Shown here in pieces: positions 4,697 through 36,153 of a stretch of DNA of 47,545 nucleotides (the first letter of the stretch is position 1; each line of letters starts with the position of its first letter). Made by a program: the position numbers and the translations under genes. Source of the DNA: Chloroflexota bacterium (GTDB taxonomy: Bacteria > Chloroflexota > UBA11872); contig JAPPLN010000088.1 of NCBI GenBank assembly GCA_028874175.1, forward strand, positions 1-47,545, given 5' to 3'. The notes under the pieces were generated by a model. That model did no database searches. It saw only the letters and a program-made list of their open reading frames with translations, and was not told the origin of the DNA.

Positions 4697-6307
4697 ATGG
4701 CGACGCCAGCTACCGATCCCTTCGAGATCGAAGTCTTCCGCCACCTCTTCGCCTCGGTTGCCGAGGAGATGGGCGTCACGGTTCAGCGCAGCGCGCATTC
4801 GCCCAACATCAAGGAGCGGCGCGACCACTCCTGCGCCGTGTTCGATGCCGACGGCCGCATGATCGCCCAAGCGGCCCACATACCCGTCCATCTCGGATCC
4901 ATGCCCGCCTCAGTATCGGCGGCGCTCGAGACTTACGAAGGCAAGCCGCCAACCCCTGGTGACGTGCTGATCGTTAACGACCCTTACCTGGGCGGCACAC
5001 ACCTTCCGGACATCACCACCGTTTCACCCGTCTTCGTGGGTTCGGAGCGCCAACCAACGCACTGGGGCTGGGTAGCAACCCGTGCCCACCACGCCGACGT
5101 GGGCGGGCTGGCGCCCGGCTCGATGCCGCCTTCCACCGAGCTCTACCACGAGGGCCTCATCATCCCGCCGCTCAAGCTGGTGGACGCGGGCACGCTGGAC
5201 GAGCAGCTCGTGGAAATCATCTGCCGCAACGTCCGCACGCCCGAGGAACGCCGAGGCGACCTGGAGGCGCAGCTAGCTTCCCACCGCGTGGGCGAAGCAC
5301 GCCTGGCCGAGTTCGCCCGACGCTACGGCGCCGAGCCGTTGCGCGAACGAGCCGCGGCCCTGCTGTCCTACTCCGAACGACTCGCCCGGGTGCGCCTTCG
5401 AGTAGTTCCCGACGGTACATACAGCTTTACCGACTACCTGGACGATGACGGCGCCGGCGGTCCTCCGATACCAATCAAGGTCACCATTCAGGCGCGAAGC
5501 GGGCGACTCAGGTTCGACTTCACCGGCACCGGACCGGCAGCGGCCGGCGCGCTGAACGCGCCCCAAGCCGTCACGCGCTCCGCCGTCATCTACGTGGCGC
5601 GCTGCCTCATGGGCGACGACGTACCGGCCAATGACGGGGCAACCGCACCGCTTGAGGTCATCGTCCCGGCCGGCACCGTCCTCAATCCGCCGCGGCCGCA
5701 CGCCGTCGCGGCGGGCAATGTTGAAACGTCGCAGCGCGTGGTTGACGTCTTATGGGGCGCGCTGGCCGACGCACTACCCGACGTGGCCCCCGCCGCCAGC
5801 CAGGGCACGATGAATAATCTCATCATCGGCGGAATCGACCCTCGACACGATCGCGCGTTTACCTACTACGAGACCATCGCCGGCGGCGCGGGTGCCGGCC
5901 CGCAGGTCTCGGGAGCCGACGCGGTACAGGTGGCAATGACGAACACGCTGAACACTCCCGTCGAAGCCATGGAACTGGCCTATCCTCTGGCCGCCCGCCG
6001 CTACGAAATCCGCCGAGGATCAGGCGGCAACGGCCGCCATCGCGGCGGCGATGGCGTGATACGTGAAATCGAAACCCTCGTGCCCTCCGTCGTCACCATC
6101 GTGACCGAGCGACGCTTGCGCCGGCCGTGGGGTGCAGCCGGTGGCGCTTCGGGAGCCTCCGGCATCAACCGCGGAACGGTCGATGGGAATGAGCGCGAAC
6201 TGCCGGGCAAGGCCGCGCTGGAACTGGCCGCGGGAGACGTGATCCGGATCGAAACGCCCGGCGGCGGCGGCTGGGGCGCGTCAGGCGGCCCCGACCAACC
6301 GGCTTAG
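4697..6307 (+). CDS. Hydantoinase B / oxoprolinase family protein
   Basis: 536 residues, full length for the HyuB family, the B subunit of ATP-dependent N-methylhydantoinase, 5-oxoprolinase and acetone carboxylase-type enzymes. Family hallmarks visible are SVAEEMGVTVQRSAHSPNIKERRDHSCAVFD split over residues 20-50, VHLGSMPASV, NDPYLGGTHLPDI, then HHADVGG and G-MPP-ST-LYHEGL-IPP. FTGTGP near 275 and the glycine-rich RGGDGVIREIE and PGGGGWG close to the end complete the pattern. The partner HyuA (ATPase subunit) is not adjacent, which is unusual, so the substrate cannot be inferred. The last 4 bases overlap the convergent thpR gene. Confidence 0.92.
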   Translation: MATPATDPFEIEVFRHLFASVAEEMGVTVQRSAHSPNIKERRDHSCAVFDADGRMIAQAAHIPVHLGSMPASVSAALETYEGKPPTPGDVLIVNDPYLGGTHLPDITTVSPVFVGSERQPTHWGWVATRAHHADVGGLAPGSMPPSTELYHEGLIIPPLKLVDAGTLDEQLVEIICRNVRTPEERRGDLEAQLASHRVGEARLAEFARRYGAEPLRERAAALLSYSERLARVRLRVVPDGTYSFTDYLDDDGAGGPPIPIKVTIQARSGRLRFDFTGTGPAAAGALNAPQAVTRSAVIYVARCLMGDDVPANDGATAPLEVIVPAGTVLNPPRPHAVAAGNVETSQRVVDVLWGALADALPDVAPAASQGTMNNLIIGGIDPRHDRAFTYYETIAGGAGAGPQVSGADAVQVAMTNTLNTPVEAMELAYPLAARRYEIRRGSGGNGRHRGGDGVIREIETLVPSVVTIVTERRLRRPWGAAGGASGASGINRGTVDGNERELPGKAALELAAGDVIRIETPGGGGWGASGGPDQPA

Positions 6308-6921
6308 AAAAATCCGAACCGCCGCTTCGGCGGAGCCTCCACGCTGACCTCGTCCGGGGTGAATTCCACGGAGAACGCCTCGTGATGAATGGCCCCAGTT
6401 GGAGTCAGATCGCTCTCCATCAGGCTGATATGCGACACGGTGAATAGTCCTAGCCGGTCAAGTTCCATCGCCTCGAACCCGCGGCTAATTGAGCGGCGCG
6501 CAGTTGGCGCGGCCATGCGTCCGATGCGCGCGAGGGTGACGTGCGGACTGAACGGCCGCCGGTCCACCCGCAGACCCAGGCCGCGAACCGCCTCCAGCAC
6601 CGCCGCCTGCAAGTCGCGCAGAGCCTCGGTCTCACCGCTGATCCCGGCCCAGGCAACCCGAGGCTCGCGATTCTCCGGAAATGTGCCCCCGCCGCTGAAC
6701 CCAATGCTGAACGGATGCCGACCCCGCACTGCCGCCTGCATCCCCGACCGAACGCTATCGGTGCTCTGCGCCGGTATGTTGCCAAGGAATGCGAGCGTGA
6801 GGTGCAGGTTTTCCGGCGACACGGTTCGAATGTGACGCGATACGCGAGCCAATGACGCCGCTTCGGCAGCCAGCGCGTCCCGAAACGGCTTGGGGATCGT
6901 GACAGCCACGAATGCCCGCAT
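6304..6921 (-). CDS. thpR: RNA 2',3'-cyclic phosphodiesterase (2H family, LigT-like)
   Basis: 205 residues, the usual length for ThpR. It carries the two catalytic H-x-T-L motifs of the 2H superfamily: HLTLAFLG at about residues 40-47 and HVTLARI at about 127-133. The start MRAFVAVTIP and the FSIGFSGGGTFPE and RVAWAGI segments are typical. The enzyme hydrolyses 2',3'-cyclic phosphates at RNA ends or ligates 2'-5' RNA; the physiological role is often unknown. It is convergent with hydantoinase B (4-base overlap) and divergent from the DXS-like gene. A TATACT -10 element sits 8 bases upstream of the ATG, implying a leaderless transcript. Confidence 0.92.
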   Translation of the reverse strand: MRAFVAVTIPKPFRDALAAEAASLARVSRHIRTVSPENLHLTLAFLGNIPAQSTDSVRSGMQAAVRGRHPFSIGFSGGGTFPENREPRVAWAGISGETEALRDLQAAVLEAVRGLGLRVDRRPFSPHVTLARIGRMAAPTARRSISRGFEAMELDRLGLFTVSHISLMESDLTPTGAIHHEAFSVEFTPDEVSVEAPPKRRFGFF

Positions 6922-6955: not shown

Positions 6956-8281
6956 GTGACCCCGGTCGCTGGCCATCTGGCAACTCTCGGCCGACAAACC
7001 GAAGTCCCAATGACAGCCGCGATTCCCGAGCGCATGGCGGCTCAGCCGGCCGTTCCCGCCGAAGCGAACGCACGCGCCGCCACAATTGAGGCGCTGCGCA
7101 AACAGCTTGTCCGACACCTGCCGTCACACTCTCAGGCACTGAGCGGTGCCGCTGAACTGGCCGTGATGGTTACGGAAACCGTGGCTGATCCCGCAACTGA
7201 CGTGTTCTGGGATCGGGCCGACCACGCGCTCGCTCATGACCTGCTACTGACGGGCTTGGCCGAGGAGACGGTCCTAACCACGCCTGGACGCGCGGCCTCC
7301 GAGGCGGCTGGAGTTGCCGTCGCCCGCACGCTCCAACGGCAACGTCTGCCTGTGGTCGCCGTGCTGGACGAGGCCGGCCTGGGAACCGGTCTGGCGTTCG
7401 AGGCCGTGAACCACGTCGGCCATCTACAGGTGCCCTTCGTCCTGGTCTTGGTTGACGCGCAGACGCCGCGTGGACGCAACGCCGGCGCGATGGCTCGTTA
7501 TCTCACCCGCGTTCGCGGCCACGCCCGCTACACCGACGCAAAGAACCTCATCGAAACAACGCTAGGGCGAATGCCTGCCGGTGAACAGGCCGTGGAAGTG
7601 GCCCGGCGGCTCAAGAACTCCGTGCGTGAGCTGCTGGTTCCCACTGAAATGTGGGAAGAGTTGCTGGGCTTTATGTATCTGGGCCCGGTCGACGTTCACA
7701 ATTTGGAGGCCCTGGGCGACCTGTTGCGCCTGGCCCTTCGGGTTGGACGCCCGGTCGTGCTGCATGTGACGCTCGACGGGCGAGGCCCCGTTCGCTCCCT
7801 ATCGTCCAACGCCGCCACGCGCGACGTCGACCTGGAGCGGGCACTGGCGGCATCGTTGGCCGGGGACGAGCAGCGACTGCTCATTGCGACGGACACCAAC
7901 GGCGCGCTCGATACCGCCGCCCTGGCTGAACAGGCGCCGGAGCGCTATTTCGATCTTGGCCTGGGCGGGGCGCATGCCGTGGCTTTTGCCGATAGCCTGG
8001 CGGCGCAGGGCTACCGGCCAATCGTTGTGCTCGGTGACGCAAGCGTCGAGTCTGCCCTCGCGGCCCTGACTGCTGAACCTAAGCGCCGCAACGAGACAGT
8101 CGTTGTCATCAGCACGGGCCGAGGCATGGCATTGCGTCCGCCGGTTCGCGCGGCCCTCAAGGCGGCCGGTTTCGCCTGGCACAGCCCGGACCCACCCAAC
8201 GACTGGGCGGAGGCCTTGCGCACCGCCGGCGCCAGCAACCGCTGGACCTTCCTCACGCCAGGGGCGATGGACACCGACTGA
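6956..8281 (+). CDS. DXS-like protein lacking the thiamine-diphosphate site (probable pseudoenzyme)
   Basis: 441 residues from GTG 6956 (ATG 7010 is an alternative). The sequence follows 1-deoxy-D-xylulose-5-phosphate synthase over domains I and II. ELAV-VTETVADPATDVFWDRADHALAHDLLLTG (67-100) matches the stretch around the DVGHQAY region. LAFEAVNHVG (146-155) and RNAGAMARYL (174-183) follow. LLVPTEMWEELLGFMYLGPVD (226-246) matches the VPG-LFEELGF-YIGPVDGH region, and ERYFDLGLGGAHAVAF (329-344) matches the RYFDVAIAEQHAVTF region. Every cofactor motif is altered. The GDG Mg/ThDP motif reads DEA (138-140), GHSST is absent, LNDN-MSIS reads LVDAQTPRG, and the catalytic Glu of AEQHA is Gly338. The C-terminal transketolase domain is missing. 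The frame is intact, so it probably encodes a protein with a binding or regulatory role, but the function is unknown. The amidohydrolase gene follows after 11 bases. Confidence 0.75.
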   Translation: MTPVAGHLATLGRQTEVPMTAAIPERMAAQPAVPAEANARAATIEALRKQLVRHLPSHSQALSGAAELAVMVTETVADPATDVFWDRADHALAHDLLLTGLAEETVLTTPGRAASEAAGVAVARTLQRQRLPVVAVLDEAGLGTGLAFEAVNHVGHLQVPFVLVLVDAQTPRGRNAGAMARYLTRVRGHARYTDAKNLIETTLGRMPAGEQAVEVARRLKNSVRELLVPTEMWEELLGFMYLGPVDVHNLEALGDLLRLALRVGRPVVLHVTLDGRGPVRSLSSNAATRDVDLERALAASLAGDEQRLLIATDTNGALDTAALAEQAPERYFDLGLGGAHAVAFADSLAAQGYRPIVVLGDASVESALAALTAEPKRRNETVVVISTGRGMALRPPVRAALKAAGFAWHSPDPPNDWAEALRTAGASNRWTFLTPGAMDTD

Positions 8282-8292
8282 CGAACCGAGCC

Positions 8293-9249
8293 GTGCCGGA
8301 CGGCACAATGCTGCCTGGCGCTATCCCAGGAACGTCACCCATTTCCCAGGCCGAAGCCAGCCGCCTGACTGAGTCCGTGCGAATTGACGTCCACACGCAC
8401 ATCGTCCCTCCGGACGTGGTCAATGGCCGTCGCCACTACAGCCGGGCGGACCTCTGGTTCGGTCGGCTTTACCGCAACGAGCATCGTGTGCTCGCCACGG
8501 CCGACGATCTGCGCCGGAGCATGCGCCGAACCACCCTTACCGCCAGCGTCGCGTTCGGCTTCGCCTGGCGCGATCCTGGTCTCTGCCGCGTCAACAACGA
8601 CTACGTGCTCGAAGCCGCTGCCGCGAGCAACGAAGGCAGCGGCCAACTCCTCCCGTTCTGCGTCGTCCCGCCCGATGACCTTGACTTCGCCATCGCGGAG
8701 ATGGAGCGCTGTCGGGCGCTCGGTGCAGTTGGCGTCGGCGAGCTGTTTCCCCAGGGCCAAAGCTGGAATCTCAACGACCGGTCCGCCGTCCGATCGTTCA
8801 TGGACACAGTTCGCACCTTGGGACTCATCCTGACCGTACACACCAGCGAGCCGGTCGGGCACCACTACCCCGGCAAAGACAGCACCACGCCGGCGGCAAT
8901 CTGGTCCCTGATCGAGGCTGCGGAAGGCGACGTACCGATCATCCTGGCGCATTGGGGCGGCGGTCTCGCCTTCTACGAACTCATGCCCGAGATTCAGCAG
9001 CAGGCCCAAAACGTCTTCTACGACTCCTCAGCCAGTCACCTGCTCTATCGGCCAGACATCTACCGCGTCATGAGTCAGTTGGCTTCGGGACGCGTGCTCT
9101 TCGGTAGCGACTACCCGCTGATCCGTCAAACGCGAGCCGTGCGCTTGGCGCGCGAAGCTGGATTGCCGGCGGCCGAACTGGCCGCGCTGCTCGGTGGCAA
9201 TGCCACCCGCCTGGGACTCGGCGTCAATGAAGGCACAGAAGCCGTCTAG
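8293..9249 (+). CDS. Amidohydrolase-2 family metal-dependent hydrolase
   Basis: 318 residues from a GTG; the conserved domain begins near residue 30, so GTG 8377 could also start it. It is a TIM-barrel amidohydrolase of the ACMSD/4-oxalomesaconate-hydratase type. Metal-binding and catalytic motifs are in order: DVHTHI (HxH, about residues 32-37), LTVHTSEP (His), ILAHWGGG (His) and VLFGSDYPL (Asp), followed by LLGGNATRLGL. Such enzymes decarboxylate or hydrolyse small acids; the substrate cannot be read from sequence. It lies 11 bases after the DXS-like gene, so the two are probably cotranscribed, and its end overlaps the convergent corrinoid gene by 4 bases. Confidence 0.85.
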   Translation: MPDGTMLPGAIPGTSPISQAEASRLTESVRIDVHTHIVPPDVVNGRRHYSRADLWFGRLYRNEHRVLATADDLRRSMRRTTLTASVAFGFAWRDPGLCRVNNDYVLEAAAASNEGSGQLLPFCVVPPDDLDFAIAEMERCRALGAVGVGELFPQGQSWNLNDRSAVRSFMDTVRTLGLILTVHTSEPVGHHYPGKDSTTPAAIWSLIEAAEGDVPIILAHWGGGLAFYELMPEIQQQAQNVFYDSSASHLLYRPDIYRVMSQLASGRVLFGSDYPLIRQTRAVRLAREAGLPAAELAALLGGNATRLGLGVNEGTEAV

Positions 9250-10121: not shown

Positions 10122-10271
10122 CAACGCTCTTCCTTCAGACCGGACGCCAGAACGCCAACCTTGGATGCCAATAGGCCGCCGACTCACTGGCGGCGATACT
10201 GGTGGGCGACGTCGCGCAACAACTACGAAGCAACTCTAGCAATTAGCAGACGGGATGACGGCGAAATCCGG

Positions 10272-10889
10272 ATGCCGCACGCCAGCGTCGTGCTGGCCAG
10301 CGGCAGCGTCCACAAGCTGGCCGAGTTTCAGCGCGTTTTCGACGGTTCGCCGATTGCGTTGGTTTCGCCGTTTGATCTCGGCTGTCAATGCGAGGTGGAC
10401 GAAACAGGCGCAACCTTTGCCGCAAACGCTCGCCTGAAGGCCGTCGCCTACGCACGGGCTTGTCGGCGCTGGGCGCTGGCCGACGACTCCGGCCTGGAAA
10501 TCGACGCCCTGAACGGAGCTCCCGGCGTGCGGTCTAGCCGCTTCGCCGGACCGAACGCCACCGAAGACGACCGGAATACTCGTGTGCTGGAACTGCTCCT
10601 CGGTGTCTGCGAAGACCGGCGAACGGCCCGTTATCGCTGTGCGGTCGCCATAGCCAATCCCGACGGCGTCGTCACCTACGAGTCGGAAGCCACGGTCGAA
10701 GGCGTCATCGGCGACGCGCCGCGTGGTGACGGCGGCTTCGGCTACGACCCGCTGTTCATCGTCGGCCCGGGAGACACGACAATGGCCGAATTGCCCGGAG
10801 TGGCCAAGGACGTCATCAGCCCCCGTGGTCAAGGCGGCCGATCCGGCCGTGCCTTTCTGGAACGCGTACTGCTCCGCGGCGTAGCCTGA
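10272..10889 (+). CDS. rdgB: RdgB/HAM1-type non-canonical purine NTP pyrophosphatase, copy 1
   Basis: 205 residues from ATG 10272. The family hydrolyses dITP, XTP and ITP to the monophosphate plus PPi, keeping deaminated purines out of DNA and RNA. VVLASGSVHKLAEF corresponds to the SxNxxK nucleotide-binding motif but has Ser in place of Asn. The catalytic stretch ADDSGLEIDAL-G-PGVRSSRFAG, the GDAPRGDGGFGYDPLF loop and MAELPGVAK are present. The end of the active site reads ISPRG rather than ISHRG, so the base-recognising His is lost. It is followed by a diverged tandem copy at 11094. No strong ribosome-binding site is seen before the ATG. Confidence 0.88.
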   Translation: MPHASVVLASGSVHKLAEFQRVFDGSPIALVSPFDLGCQCEVDETGATFAANARLKAVAYARACRRWALADDSGLEIDALNGAPGVRSSRFAGPNATEDDRNTRVLELLLGVCEDRRTARYRCAVAIANPDGVVTYESEATVEGVIGDAPRGDGGFGYDPLFIVGPGDTTMAELPGVAKDVISPRGQGGRSGRAFLERVLLRGVA

Positions 10890-11093: not shown

Positions 11094-11702
11094 GTCCGTG
11101 TAGTACTGGCCAGCGGCAACGCGGACAAGCTCGCTGAGTTTCGGCGCATATTCGCCGGTTCCCGAGTGCGGCTGCTCTCGCCGACGGATTTGGGCTGCGG
11201 TCTGGATGTGGTCGAGACTGGTGTCACTTTTGCCGAGAACGCACGCCTGAAAGCCATCGCCTACGCAAGGTCGTACCGACAATGGGCTCTGGCCGACGAC
11301 TCCGGCCTGGAGATCGACGCGCTAGGCGGCGTACCGGGCGTGCGGTCTAGCCGATTTGCCGGACTCAATGCCACGGACATTGATCGGAATAGCCGCGTGA
11401 TCGAACTGGTTCGTGGCATTCCTGACGGCGATCGATCCGCCCGCTACCGCTGCGCTGTTGCAATAGCTAGTCCCAAGGGAGTTATCGCTTACGAGACAGA
11501 GGCGACGGTGGAGGGCTTTATCGGCCATTCGCTGCGGGGTGACTGCGGCTTTGGCTTCGACCCGCTATTCGTCGTCGGACCCGGCGATACGACGATGGCG
11601 GAACTGCCCGGAGTGGCAAAAGACGTGATTAGTGATCGTGGCCAAGGCGGCCGCGCCGCGCGCGCTTTCCTAGAACGCGTGGTAGCTCGTAGCGAGTCCT
11701 GA
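11094..11702 (+). CDS. RdgB/HAM1-type pyrophosphatase, copy 2, no standard start codon
   Basis: Homology with copy 1 begins at about 11094 (V-R-VVLASGNADKLAEFRRIF), which keeps the Asn of the SxNxxK motif. The catalytic ADDSGLEIDAL, VRSSRFAG, GDCGFGFDPLF and MAELPGVAKDVIS segments are intact, with ISDRG replacing ISHRG. The frame is open upstream to 11010, yet it contains no ATG, GTG or TTG before the motif. The first standard start is GTG 11166, which would remove the nucleotide-binding N-terminus. Possible explanations are a non-AUG start (ATC 11079 or similar), a gene beginning to decay, or a sequence error. Flanks before and after match copy 1, marking a tandem duplication of about 0.7 kb. 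Confidence 0.75.
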   Translation, partial: VRVVLASGNADKLAEFRRIFAGSRVRLLSPTDLGCGLDVVETGVTFAENARLKAIAYARSYRQWALADDSGLEIDALGGVPGVRSSRFAGLNATDIDRNSRVIELVRGIPDGDRSARYRCAVAIASPKGVIAYETEATVEGFIGHSLRGDCGFGFDPLFVVGPGDTTMAELPGVAKDVISDRGQGGRAARAFLERVVARSES

Positions 11703-26536: not shown

Positions 26537-27031
26537 ATGGCGCACAAGGCATCCGTGGCGGACATTCGCGCGATCCGAGTCGAGACCGGCGCGGGCGTCA
26601 TGGACATTAAGCGAGCCATCGAAGACGCCGAAGGCGATATAGACAAAGCCCGCGAACTCTTGGGCCAACGCGGCTCGCAGTTCTCCGCCAAGCGAGCGGA
26701 ACGCGAAACCAGGGAAGGCCTCGTCACTGCGTACGTTCATCCTGGTCGTCCGCTCGGCGCGCTGCTCGAACTCAATTGTGAAACCGACTTTGTCGCCCGA
26801 ACTGAGGACTTCACCACCCTCGCCCGCGACATCGCCATGCACATCGCGGCCATGGCGCCCACCCGAGTCAGCGACGACGATGACCGGGACCCGGGCGACG
26901 AAGGCCCCGCGCTGCTGACCCAGCCATGGTTCCGGGACGGCTCGCAGACCGTGGAGCAGGTCATCCAGGTGGCAGTTGCCAAGCTGGGCGAAAACATCCA
27001 GGTTGGGCGGTTTAGCCGCTTCGAGATCTGA
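26537..27031 (+). CDS. tsf: Elongation factor Ts (short form)
   Basis: 164 residues. EF-Ts exchanges GDP for GTP on EF-Tu. The UBA-like N-terminal domain (VADIRAIRVETGAGVMDIKRAI, about 6-28, then DKARELL) and the TDFVART signature are intact. Only one short core subdomain follows, ending with VEQVIQVAVAKLGENIQVGRF. The E. coli protein is about 280 residues; the compact form resembles those of Thermus and many Chloroflexota. It follows rpsB by 6 bases, the conserved order in bacteria. Confidence 0.95.
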   Translation: MAHKASVADIRAIRVETGAGVMDIKRAIEDAEGDIDKARELLGQRGSQFSAKRAERETREGLVTAYVHPGRPLGALLELNCETDFVARTEDFTTLARDIAMHIAAMAPTRVSDDDDRDPGDEGPALLTQPWFRDGSQTVEQVIQVAVAKLGENIQVGRFSRFEI

Positions 27032-29076: not shown

Positions 29077-29870
29077 CGCCGCTGGCTGTTCGGGTAGCTA
29101 GCGCCCTCGTCCTGGCGCCGGCCGTCTTGGCGCTGGCCTGGTGGCATCCGCTGGCGCTCGCGGTTCCGATGGCTCTGGCGGCTGCGGTGATCGCGTTCGA
29201 AATTGGAACGATGTACGCGGCAAGTGGCATTAGGGTCTCCCGTGGAGCGGGCGCGCTCCTCGCCGCCGCAATCGTGGCACGGTGGGCTTTGGCGCCCGAG
29301 CAGCAACCCTGGACCGACTTGGCCATTGGCTTGATCGCTGCCTATACGCTGCTGCGCCAACTCTGGCATCCGCGCATGTACGGTCGCTTCACCAGTTGGG
29401 GCCTGGCACTCGCGTCCGCGGCCTACGCTGGAGGTCTCCTCGGGTTCCTGGTCCTGTTGCGCGACCTGCCGGACGGATTCTGGTGGGTGGCCCTGGCCCT
29501 CGCCGTTACGTGGGCCTATGACACCTTCGGATACATCGTGGGTCGCGGCCTGGGCCGCCGCGGGTTTATGACCCACATCTCACCGCGCAAGACGTGGGAG
29601 GGTGTGGCAGGTGGGTTGCTGGCCGCGATCATCGTCGTCGGCGCCTTCGCGCCCGTGCTCGGCTACGACTGGTGGCTGGCCGTTCCCTTAGGATTCCTGT
29701 GGGGCCTTGCCGCGCAAGCGGGCGATCTGGTGGCGTCGATGCTCAAACGAGATACCGGGCAGAAAGACTCCGGTCGGCTTATCCCCGGGCACGGCGGCAT
29801 GCTCGACCGGCTCGATGCCCTGTTGTTCGTAGCTCCCGCCGTGTTCGCCTTCGCGCGGCTGGGGGCCTGA
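29073..29870 (+). CDS. cdsA: Phosphatidate cytidylyltransferase, probable CTG start
   Basis: 265 residues, an integral membrane enzyme making CDP-diacylglycerol for phospholipid synthesis. Seven to eight hydrophobic segments are visible. The C-terminal signature is complete: D-VASMLKRDTGQKDSG, then LIPGHGGMLDRLDALL. The conserved N-terminus (L-VRVASALVLAP) begins just after the uppS stop, and no ATG, GTG or TTG lies between the stop and this block. CTG at 29073 overlaps the uppS TGA as CTGA, analogous to the ATGA/GTGA couplings elsewhere here. The alternative GTG 28962 would overlap uppS by 115 bases and add a non-homologous Arg-rich leader. Confidence 0.88.
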   Translation: MTPLAVRVASALVLAPAVLALAWWHPLALAVPMALAAAVIAFEIGTMYAASGIRVSRGAGALLAAAIVARWALAPEQQPWTDLAIGLIAAYTLLRQLWHPRMYGRFTSWGLALASAAYAGGLLGFLVLLRDLPDGFWWVALALAVTWAYDTFGYIVGRGLGRRGFMTHISPRKTWEGVAGGLLAAIIVVGAFAPVLGYDWWLAVPLGFLWGLAAQAGDLVASMLKRDTGQKDSGRLIPGHGGMLDRLDALLFVAPAVFAFARLGA

Positions 29871-29881
29871 GGAACGTGGCC

Positions 29882-31045
29882 GTGGCCGGCGCCGCTCCAC
29901 AACGCCGGCGTGTGGTGATTCTTGGGTCCACCGGTTCCATCGGAGTACAGACCCTCCAGGTCGTACGTGCCCACCCGGATCGCTTCGAGGTACTTGGACT
30001 GGCCTGCGGATCAAATTCAGAGCTGCTCTTCCAGCAAATCCGCGAGTTCCGCGCCCCCCTGGCCTGCGTGCGCGACCTGGACCCGGCCGCCGGCGACTGG
30101 CCGCCCGCTGCTGAGCGTCTTCCCTACCCCGACGGCATGGCCGCGATGGCCGGACTCCCTGAAGCCGACATCGTGGTCGTGGCGACCGTCGGCGACGCCG
30201 GCTTTCGCCCCACCGAGAGTGCCCTCCGCGCCGGCAACAACGTCGCCCTTGCCAGCAAGGAGATGCTCGTCATGGGCGGTGGGCTCTTTCGCAAGCTGGC
30301 CGATGCGTCCGGCGCCGCCATCCTCCCCATCGACAGCGAGCACAGCGCCATCTGGCAGTGCTTGGTCGGCGAAGCCCCCGAGAGCATCCGCCGACTGATT
30401 CTCACCGCGTCTGGAGGACCCTTCCGCACCTGGGCAATGCCGGACATTCGCACCGCCACCGCCGAAGAAGCGTTGGAACATCCCAACTGGGACATGGGCG
30501 CCAAAATCACCGTCGACTCGGCCAGCCTGCTCAACAAGGGCCTTGAGATCATCGAGGCCCACTGGCTGTTTCAGGTTCCCTACAAGGCCATTTCCGTAAT
30601 TGTTCATCCTGAATCGATCGTGCATTCCATGGTTGAATTCAAAGACGGTTCCATAAAGGCCCAGCTTGGGGTGCCGGACATGCGGTTGCCCATCCAGTAC
30701 GCCATCGGCTTCCCGGAACGCCTGCCTGAGGCACACGCGCCCTTGGACCTGCACACCCTCTCGCGCCTGAACTTCGAGTCGCCGGACGAGCGCCGCTTCC
30801 CGTTGCTCGCTGCCGCTCGGGCCGCGGGCGCCGCTGGCGGCACCGCTCCCGCCACCCTCTGCGGCGCCGACGACGCGGCAACCGCCTGGTTCATCGAGGG
30901 CGGCGGACCGTTTGGCGTGATGACCGACGCCGTGCAGGCCGCAATGGACGCCATCCCGGCCGAGCCGCTGGAAGACCTGAGCGCCGCCCTGGCGGCCCAC
31001 CGCCGCGGATTCGAGTTCGTACAGGCGCGTCTGGCTGACGCGTGA
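29882..31045 (+). CDS. dxr: 1-deoxy-D-xylulose 5-phosphate reductoisomerase
   Basis: 387 residues from GTG 29882, which has GAGGA 8 bases upstream; GTG 29876 is in frame. It is the second MEP-pathway enzyme, using NADPH. [15 protein letters not shown] (cofactor loop), [25 protein letters not shown] with metal ligands Asp and Glu, [40 protein letters not shown] and [17 protein letters not shown] are canonical. It lies 11 bases after cdsA, and its stop overlaps the rseP GTG (GTGA). With ispG at 35053 it places two MEP genes in the window. Confidence 0.96.
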   Translation: [387 protein letters not shown]

Positions 31046-35052: not shown

Positions 35053-36153
35053 ATGATCAAGCGGCGCGGGTCCTACCAGATCAAGGTGCGCGACGTGCCC
35101 ATCGGCGGCGGCGCGCCGATTGCCGTCCAGTCCATGACCATCACCGACACGCGCGACGTCGACGCCACCGTGGCGCAGATCGAGCGGCTGATGGAACACG
35201 GCTGCGACATCGTCCGTCTGGCCGTGCCCGACAAGTACGCCGGCGCCGCCCTCAAGGACATCCGCGCGCGCACCGATGCGCCCCTCGTGGCGGATATCCA
35301 CTTCGACTACCGCCTGGCCCTCATGGCGGCCGAAGCCGAGTTCGACTGCCTCCGCATCAACCCGGGCAACATCGGCGGACGCGAAAACGTCGAAAAGGTC
35401 GTCCGCGCCTGCAAGGACCGCGACATCCCGATCCGCATCGGCGTCAACTCCGGTTCGATCCAGGAAGCCTGGTCCAAGAAGTTCGACGGTCGACCCGAAG
35501 GCGACGAACTCGTGGACCTCATGGTCGAGGACGCCGTGGAACACGTGAAAATCCTCGAAGACATGAACTTCGACCAGATCAAGATATCCATGAAGTCCTT
35601 CGAGGTCGACGTCACCATCAACGCCTACAAGCAGCTGGCCCAGTTGGTGATGTATCCGTTCCACATCGGCATCACCGAGTCCGGGCCTCCGAGCACCGGG
35701 ATCATCCGTTCCTCGGTGGGCCTGGGCAGCCTGCTGTGGGATGGCTACGGCGACACCATGCGCGTCTCCCTCACCACCGATCCGGTCGAGGAAGTCCGCG
35801 TCGCCAACGAGATTCTCAAGGTCCTCGGCCTCAAGACCGTGGGACCGACCATGGTCTCCTGCCCATCCTGCGGACGCTGCGAAATCGATCTTTACGGCCT
35901 GGCCGACGCCGTCGAGGACGTAATGAAGGGCGTCAAGCAGCCCATGAAAGTCGCCGTCATGGGCTGCGTGGTGAATGGGCCCGGCGAAGCCATGGACGCC
36001 GACCTGGGCATCGCCGGCGGCAAGGGCCGCGCGGTGATCTTCCGCCACGGCGAAATCCTGCAGACCGTGGACGAAGCCGACATGCTGCCTGTGCTGACGG
36101 AAGAAATCGGCAAACTCGAAGTGGCGATGGCGGAAACGGCAGAGGCTTCCTGA
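35053..36153 (+). CDS. ispG: 4-hydroxy-3-methylbut-2-en-1-yl diphosphate synthase
   Basis: 366 residues from ATG 35053; the frame is open further upstream but that part is antisense to the molybdoprotein. It converts MEcPP to HMBPP with a 4Fe-4S cluster. TIM-barrel blocks are VQSMTITDTRDVDATV, ADIHFDYRLAL, RINPGNIGGRENV and RIGVNSGS; further on are ISMKSFEV and HIGITESG. Cluster ligands are CPSCGRCEIDL (about 270-280), MGCVVNGPGEA and the following Glu. It is divergent from the molybdoprotein gene, with a 279-base gap holding a TACGAT at 35007 that could be a -10 element. Confidence 0.97.
   Translation: MIKRRGSYQIKVRDVPIGGGAPIAVQSMTITDTRDVDATVAQIERLMEHGCDIVRLAVPDKYAGAALKDIRARTDAPLVADIHFDYRLALMAAEAEFDCLRINPGNIGGRENVEKVVRACKDRDIPIRIGVNSGSIQEAWSKKFDGRPEGDELVDLMVEDAVEHVKILEDMNFDQIKISMKSFEVDVTINAYKQLAQLVMYPFHIGITESGPPSTGIIRSSVGLGSLLWDGYGDTMRVSLTTDPVEEVRVANEILKVLGLKTVGPTMVSCPSCGRCEIDLYGLADAVEDVMKGVKQPMKVAVMGCVVNGPGEAMDADLGIAGGKGRAVIFRHGEILQTVDEADMLPVLTEEIGKLEVAMAETAEAS

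Follow-up and report, generated by a model that had tools for sequence, protein, structure and literature searches.

The MEP pathway begins with DXS, and the question raised by this locus is what a bacterium does with a DXS-like protein from which most of the residues for thiamine diphosphate (ThDP) have gone. The window (i.e., the whole stretch of DNA analyzed, 47,545 nucleotides) corresponds to a complete contig from a Chloroflexota draft genome of 3.3 Mb. A preliminary description had read the frame at 6956-8281 as domains I and II of DXS stripped of every ThDP residue, selected as a protein, and serving perhaps as a non-catalytic regulator or partner of real DXS, or as a repurposed fold.

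Descent from DXS and loss of the cofactor site

The frame is intact as described, running open without a stop from 6956 to 8281 on the plus strand. The ATG at 7010 is the likelier start, with an ATG at the aligned start in 17 of 18 orthologues; residue numbers refer to the 423-aa protein beginning there, except for Pfam positions, which are given in the 441-aa frame. The gene and the parts of it that bear on its former active site are listed here (g1 and g2 are the two genera of the family, g1 being that of the window's own genome):

7010..8281, plus strand: DXS-like gene, putative pseudoenzyme of 423 aa (ATG at 7010; the alternative GTG at 6956 is less conserved)
7367..7375, plus strand: D120-E121-A122, replacing the GDG metal motif (D120 in 18/18 orthologues; Gly in 65/65 DXS rows)
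7796..8278, plus strand: degenerate domain II (pyrimidine-binding fold) without the DRAG/His431 loop (17/83 and 4/78 positions invariant)
7967..7969, plus strand: Gly320 at the place of the catalytic Glu370 (Glu in 6/6 g2 orthologues)

Pfam, PDB, and profile alignments agree with the earlier statement that the protein follows DXS domains I and II in order. Pfam PF13292 (DXP_synthase_N) matches residues 113-272 (441-aa numbering) at 4.8e-36, the transketolase pyrimidine domain gives a weak match under the cut-off to residues 293-358 (441-aa numbering; 0.021), and NCBIfam TIGR00204 (dxs) matches at 2.7e-39 with 135.2 bits, short of its equivalog cut-off of 465.95 bits. All 12 PDB sequence matches are named DXS (E-values down to 5.8e-23), and positions 95 to 409 of an 11-sequence DXS-like family profile align with residues 126-462 of E. 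coli DXS. The profiles thus place the protein in DXS rather than in an unrelated family, the outcome that would have told against the preliminary description. The predicted structure is weak (pLDDT 56.6, from an alignment input of 12 rows from one genus); among the 50 Foldseek matches listed for this model, all are DXS or DXPS-like with low TM-scores (0.36-0.42 by query), so the structure search adds little beyond sequence.

The losses were compared at 26 motif positions in 18 DXS-like rows, 7 rows of the family's own DXS, and 58 rows of other Chloroflexota DXS, with the partial rows L023 and L141 left out here, in the fixed-site comparison, and in the tree. Numbering follows the E. coli DXS chain as aligned where visible; the remaining numbers and the residue roles are those usual for DXS. 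The alignment bears out the substitutions described for the window protein, in which the GDG metal motif reads DEA, the LNDN ligand motif reads LVDA, and AEQHA reads GGAHA with Gly for the catalytic Glu. The GHSST loop is deleted as described, the DRAG...HHG loop (DRAG/His431) is deleted as well, and the transketolase C-domain (domain III) is missing, the protein ending in domain II. Residues wanting in the DXS-like rows comprise the GHSST His and Thr, the full GDG motif, N179, N181, M183-S184-I185, K289, H299, Y392, F395, Q397, R398, D402, the DRAG-loop Asp (D427), His431, and R478; none of the 18 rows holds the full GDG...N metal/ThDP motif. The wording that every ThDP residue had been lost was too strong, as most are gone but D180 and H372 remain in 18/18 rows. 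H49 is absent in 17 of 18 rows and kept by one, and a domain I His (labelled H80 with doubt) is present in 11 of 18. The place of the metal Asp (D152) is taken by Glu in 11 g1 rows and by Gly in g2, with Asp in genome G002, and that of Glu370 by Gly in 12 of 18 rows (the 11 g1 rows and G002), while Glu is found in 6/6 g2 orthologues; the losses therefore look stepwise, with Glu370 outliving the others in one genus. The family's own DXS has the usual residues at all 26 positions in 7/7 rows. Read from its residue losses, the DXS-like protein is probably non-catalytic, as the preliminary description proposed.

Orthologues are present in 18 of the 19 genomes of the family (12/13 of genus g1, own genome included, and 6/6 of g2), all with open frames without stops, and most of the losses are common to all 18 rows. 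Absence from the remaining genome (G003) was considered as a true loss and is not supported: the genome is 76% complete and likewise yields no match to three genes of the flanks (amidohydrolase, LigT, and corrinoid). Whole-gene dN/dS ranges from 0.07 to 0.21 (Nei-Gojobori; 14 pairs picked by hand from 153 possible and not independent), far from the value near 1 proposed as the sign of decay. The ends are looser, dN/dS rising in single pairs to 0.86 for the N-terminal part and to 0.47 for the C-terminal one, and one short stretch gives 0.91 in one pair, where dS is 0.03. By these measures, together with the shared synteny, the DXS-like protein is under purifying selection and not decaying, as previously claimed.

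The gene seems confined to its family. In the phylum search, which scored the best 4 first-look candidates per genome, family-profile scores drop from 677 to 241 bits, the best match outside the family being an ordinary DXS; by this profile, no DXS-like gene turned up in the remaining 381 of the 400 Chloroflexota genomes, and the 22 genomes of the class outside the family (of 41) likewise gave nothing similar. A contig scan with peptides of the DXS-like protein of the window returned 11 loci, all from g1; it missed even g2 and is hence uninformative on other phyla. A viral contig scan found no DXS-like gene. Several of these metagenome-assembled genomes are apparently sponge-associated, judging from isolate names.

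Reversal of constraint and the former cofactor pocket

The stretch of domain I that runs from the metal motif to the GPVD strand, here called the connector, is on the aligned sequences the most constrained part of the DXS-like protein:

7496..7693, plus strand: hyperconserved connector, residues 163-228 (51/66 positions invariant in 18 orthologues)

Invariant positions amount to 51/66 in the connector versus 4/78 in the C-terminus, and dN/dS in the connector is 0-0.13 (13 pairs measurable there). Conservation of the DNA itself is an unlikely cause, as connector dS is 0.13-0.59 in 13 of 14 pairs and 0 in the nearest pair. Between the two genera, the DXS-like connector (163-217) is 78.9% identical, as against 48.5% over the remainder of residues 92-355 (72 pairs). 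In ordinary Chloroflexota DXS, connector identity exceeds that of the rest in 2 of 1,602 pairs within the 40-80% bands (51 further pairs, by arithmetic, fall outside these bands and were left untallied). Constraint is thus, as judged from these identities, reversed: the connector is most variable in ordinary DXS and best conserved in the DXS-like protein. In the available portions of two structural papers, the connector of DXS is described as being of very low conservation, with a six-glycine replacement leaving the P. aeruginosa enzyme comparably active (PMC10504544), and seven glycines in its place having small effects in M. tuberculosis DXS (PMC9068908).

The family's own DXS has changed in the same region. 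Between genera its connector is 44.8% identical versus 74.4% for the rest (10 pairs), and it has a mean identity of 11.9% to other DXS connectors. It measures 50-51 aa in 7/7 family rows, compared with 63-82 aa in 59 of 60 other rows; these 60 are a non-random set (about half are the strongest family-profile matches, the others weaker, and L117, with 7 aa, was dropped). The DXS domain span is correspondingly shortened in 19/19 family genomes (262-263 aa, or 260 in the own genome, whose copy runs into the contig end), as against 276-277 aa in the sister family f2 (3 of 5 genomes with DXS). The exception among the 60 rows is L146, the DXS of genome G063, with a connector of 29 aa; the only family-profile match of that genome (3.7e-25) is far under DXS-like strength, so a DXS-like gene is not a precondition for a shorter connector. 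A second DXS in the g1 genome G006 (contig C33) has the span length of the other genus and possibly reflects bin contamination.

Mean identity of the DXS-like protein to other DXS is 31.9% in the connector and 32.0% in the remaining sequence, and this equal distance implies that its connector was altered first and then held fixed. The closest connector, at 56%, is that of L087, the DXS of another family, a likeness that may point to a donor whose connector was canonical. On sequence grounds, the DXS-like protein is a descendant of a DXS with a full-length connector.

A second group of newly fixed residues lies around the emptied cofactor site:

7289..7291, plus strand: Arg94 at Thr124 of the GHSST loop (Arg in 18/18 orthologues; Thr in 64/65 DXS rows)
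7448..7477, plus strand: LVDAQTPRGR, replacing LNDNxMSIS (N181 lost; R154 and R156 fixed in 18/18)

At 14 sites, one residue is found in at least 80% of the 65 DXS rows and a different one in 18/18 DXS-like rows; the switches include Thr124 to Arg94, Gly151 to Asp120, Asn179 to Val148, and Ile185 to Arg154. Arg156 occurs in 18/18 DXS-like rows and in 2/65 DXS rows. Three arginines (R94, R154, and R156) have become invariant at, or next to, positions of the former diphosphate loop, and Thr124 of DXS presumably also lies near the ThDP diphosphate. Arg154 occupies the place of Ile185, the last of the Asp, Met, Ser, and Ile that follow the Asn ligand and fold around the ThDP diphosphate in DXS, according to the available text of PMC10504544. 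The presence of these arginines together with the loss of the Mg ligands suggests that the former pocket is a putative metal-free anion site.

Genomic slot and the active DXS

The DXS-like gene sits in a fixed neighborhood:

4697..6307, plus strand: hydantoinase B family gene (HyuB), flank of the slot (profile match, synteny)
6304..6921, minus strand: RNA 2',3'-cyclic phosphodiesterase (LigT), upstream flank of the slot (profile match, synteny)
8293..9249, plus strand: amidohydrolase_2 gene directly downstream of the DXS-like gene (class-wide, 38/41; neighbor by synteny)

The order HyuB, LigT, DXS-like, amidohydrolase, corrinoid protein, and Ham1 is identical in 18/18 loci compared with the window (17 genomes, G002 twice). 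Tandem Ham1/XTP-diphosphatase-like genes (10161-10889 and 11166-11702) both have matches in the syntenic loci, mostly in the same place. In four loci of the sister family f2, gene order is much alike, but a hemW-type radical-SAM gene stands at the DXS-like place; these loci have no corrinoid-gene match, LigT is unmatched in one, and in a fifth f2 genome the coordinates of the amidohydrolase and hemW-type matches agree with the same arrangement. The name hemW is the one we assume for the TIGR00539 (hemN_rel) matches. At E 1e-20, TIGR00539 is matched in 18 of the 22 class genomes outside the family (5/5 f2, 8/9 f3, 5/6 f4, and 0/2 f5) and in 0/19 family genomes. On this comparison, the DXS-like gene occupies the slot from which hemW was evidently lost. 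In 17 of the 18 genomes with a hemW-type gene, the amidohydrolase gene lies within ~450 bases of it, and the DXS-like gene is absent from all of them. The pairing with an amidohydrolase noted in the preliminary description is therefore real as adjacency but weak as evidence of joint function, given that the amidohydrolase gene is class-wide and adjoins the hemW-type gene elsewhere. The genes dxr (within 29594-31045) and ispG (35077-36111) do lie elsewhere in the window, as reported. A short EF-Ts frame at 26537-27031 (164 aa) matches the tsf model (293 positions) over positions 5-93, with a score slightly short of the cut-off.

A genome search for a complete DXS found a catalytic-type DXS on another contig, whose end cuts off no more than the first residues of the protein; the DXS-like and DXS genes are not neighbors. 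In a tree of 72 rows (7 of the 18 DXS-like and 65 DXS, with connector columns included), the DXS-like rows form one clade (100/100) on a long stem, while the active DXS of the family falls together with f2 DXS and two further rows (98/90). None of three topologies is rejected, whether the DXS-like clade is united with family DXS (p = 0.168), with sister-family DXS plus L137 (p = 0.203), or with the whole set (p = 0.287), and its placement is accordingly unsure. DXS is present in 19/19 genomes of the family (f1) and in 3/5 of f2, and was not found in f3-f5 (0/17 class genomes), so the isoprenoid route may differ inside the class.

Possible functions and comparison with known systems

Since the cofactor site is dismantled, the connector frozen, and the connector of the active DXS rewritten on the same branch, the DXS-like protein can be read as a DXS-derived pseudoenzyme acting by binding, with DXS as its most likely partner; this is the reading we tentatively prefer, at somewhat less than an even chance. 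The connector would be its docking surface, the former cofactor pocket would hold an anionic ligand without metal, and the partner, most likely the family's own DXS, would be activated, inhibited, or stabilized according to ligand. Action by binding is favored by the losses in 18 DXS-like rows set against intact counterparts in 7/7 family DXS rows. Several points tell against DXS as the partner. The connector change coincides with the acquisition of the DXS-like gene on a single branch (n = 1), and the connector of the DXS-like protein resembles those of other DXS no more than the rest of the protein does. L146 has a short connector in a genome with no match of DXS-like strength, and the DXS-like and DXS genes lie apart. 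In the available portions of PMC10504544 and PMC9068908, engineered connector deletions leave DXS active, so that DXS has no obvious need of a replacement.

A partner other than DXS is nearly as likely. The protein would then be a repurposed fold in non-DXS service, its connector and Arg-lined pocket binding another partner or an anionic metabolite, perhaps together with the amidohydrolase; this is a substantial possibility, short of even. It agrees with the adjacency of the amidohydrolase gene on the same strand in 18/18 loci compared, with the new invariant residues R94, R154, R156, and D120, and with the want of any link of the DXS-like gene to MEP genes other than the 47-kb contig on which it lies together with dxr and ispG, yet where the DXS-like gene is absent the amidohydrolase gene lies beside the hemW-type gene, so that their adjacency may be a legacy of the slot. 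The invariant polar residues (D120, D149, R154, R156, H171, and H322 in 18/18) would also suit a new, ThDP-free catalytic activity on the old scaffold, but constraint peaks in the connector, which is catalytically dispensable in DXS, domain II is weakly constrained, and no known active-site signature was recognized in the protein, making this improbable. Retention of ThDP binding or use in modified form is far less probable again, despite D180 and H372 in all rows, Glu370 in g2, and Asp at the D152 place in G002: N181, the GHSST His and Thr, K289, H299, F395, R398, D427, and H431 are absent in 18/18 rows and H49 in 17/18. Least credible of all is a decaying pseudogene or assembly artefact; lost catalytic residues, a lost domain III, and looser ends might be expected of one, but stop-free frames in 18 genomes, low dN/dS, and synteny kept across two genera led us to reject it.

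A more specific form of the preferred DXS-docking reading is a two-gene DXS, in which the active enzyme dispensed with its mobile connector and the dead paralogue kept and froze one, docking through it and sensing a phosphorylated metabolite via arginines that replace Mg in the old ThDP pocket. In this full form the proposal is speculative and rather unlikely; if true, it would be a prozyme-like switch of bacterial isoprenoid synthesis. More generally, the gene would be a conserved dead paralogue in bacteria that may help to regulate the flux into isoprenoids in what seem to be sponge-associated Chloroflexota. Nothing on a bacterial DXS pseudoenzyme was found in the literature listings consulted.

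Compared with DXS itself (TIGR00204, PF13292), the DXS-like protein is homologous over domains I and II in order, and its connector has the canonical Chloroflexota length and pattern, with up to 56% identity to one DXS connector, but it is without the ThDP/Mg/catalytic set, the GHSST loop, the DRAG loop, and domain III (135 vs 466 bits). As far as the available portions of PMC10504544 and PMC9068908 go, loop-truncated DXS constructs had the same region removed with activity kept, and in this they resemble the shortened connector of the family's DXS; those constructs are laboratory-made, whereas here the active DXS was shortened in nature beside a dead paralogue with a full-length connector. 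A region cut out for crystals as non-conserved in that work is best conserved in a protein that is hardly DXS any more, which implies that the connector can carry a function of its own, one that is now testable. The closest precedent for the preferred reading as a DXS-docking regulatory partner, which could be wrong, is offered by the trypanosomatid AdoMetDC prozyme and deoxyhypusine synthase (PMC5201418, PMC6221367, PMC3663545), where, in the portions of these papers available, a dead paralogue is kept beside an active enzyme. Here likewise a selected paralogue, dead as read from its residues, stands beside an active-type DXS in the same genome. The trypanosomatid systems differ in fold, pathway, and kind of organism, the present case is known from sequence alone, and the active DXS here keeps all 26 of the motif positions checked.
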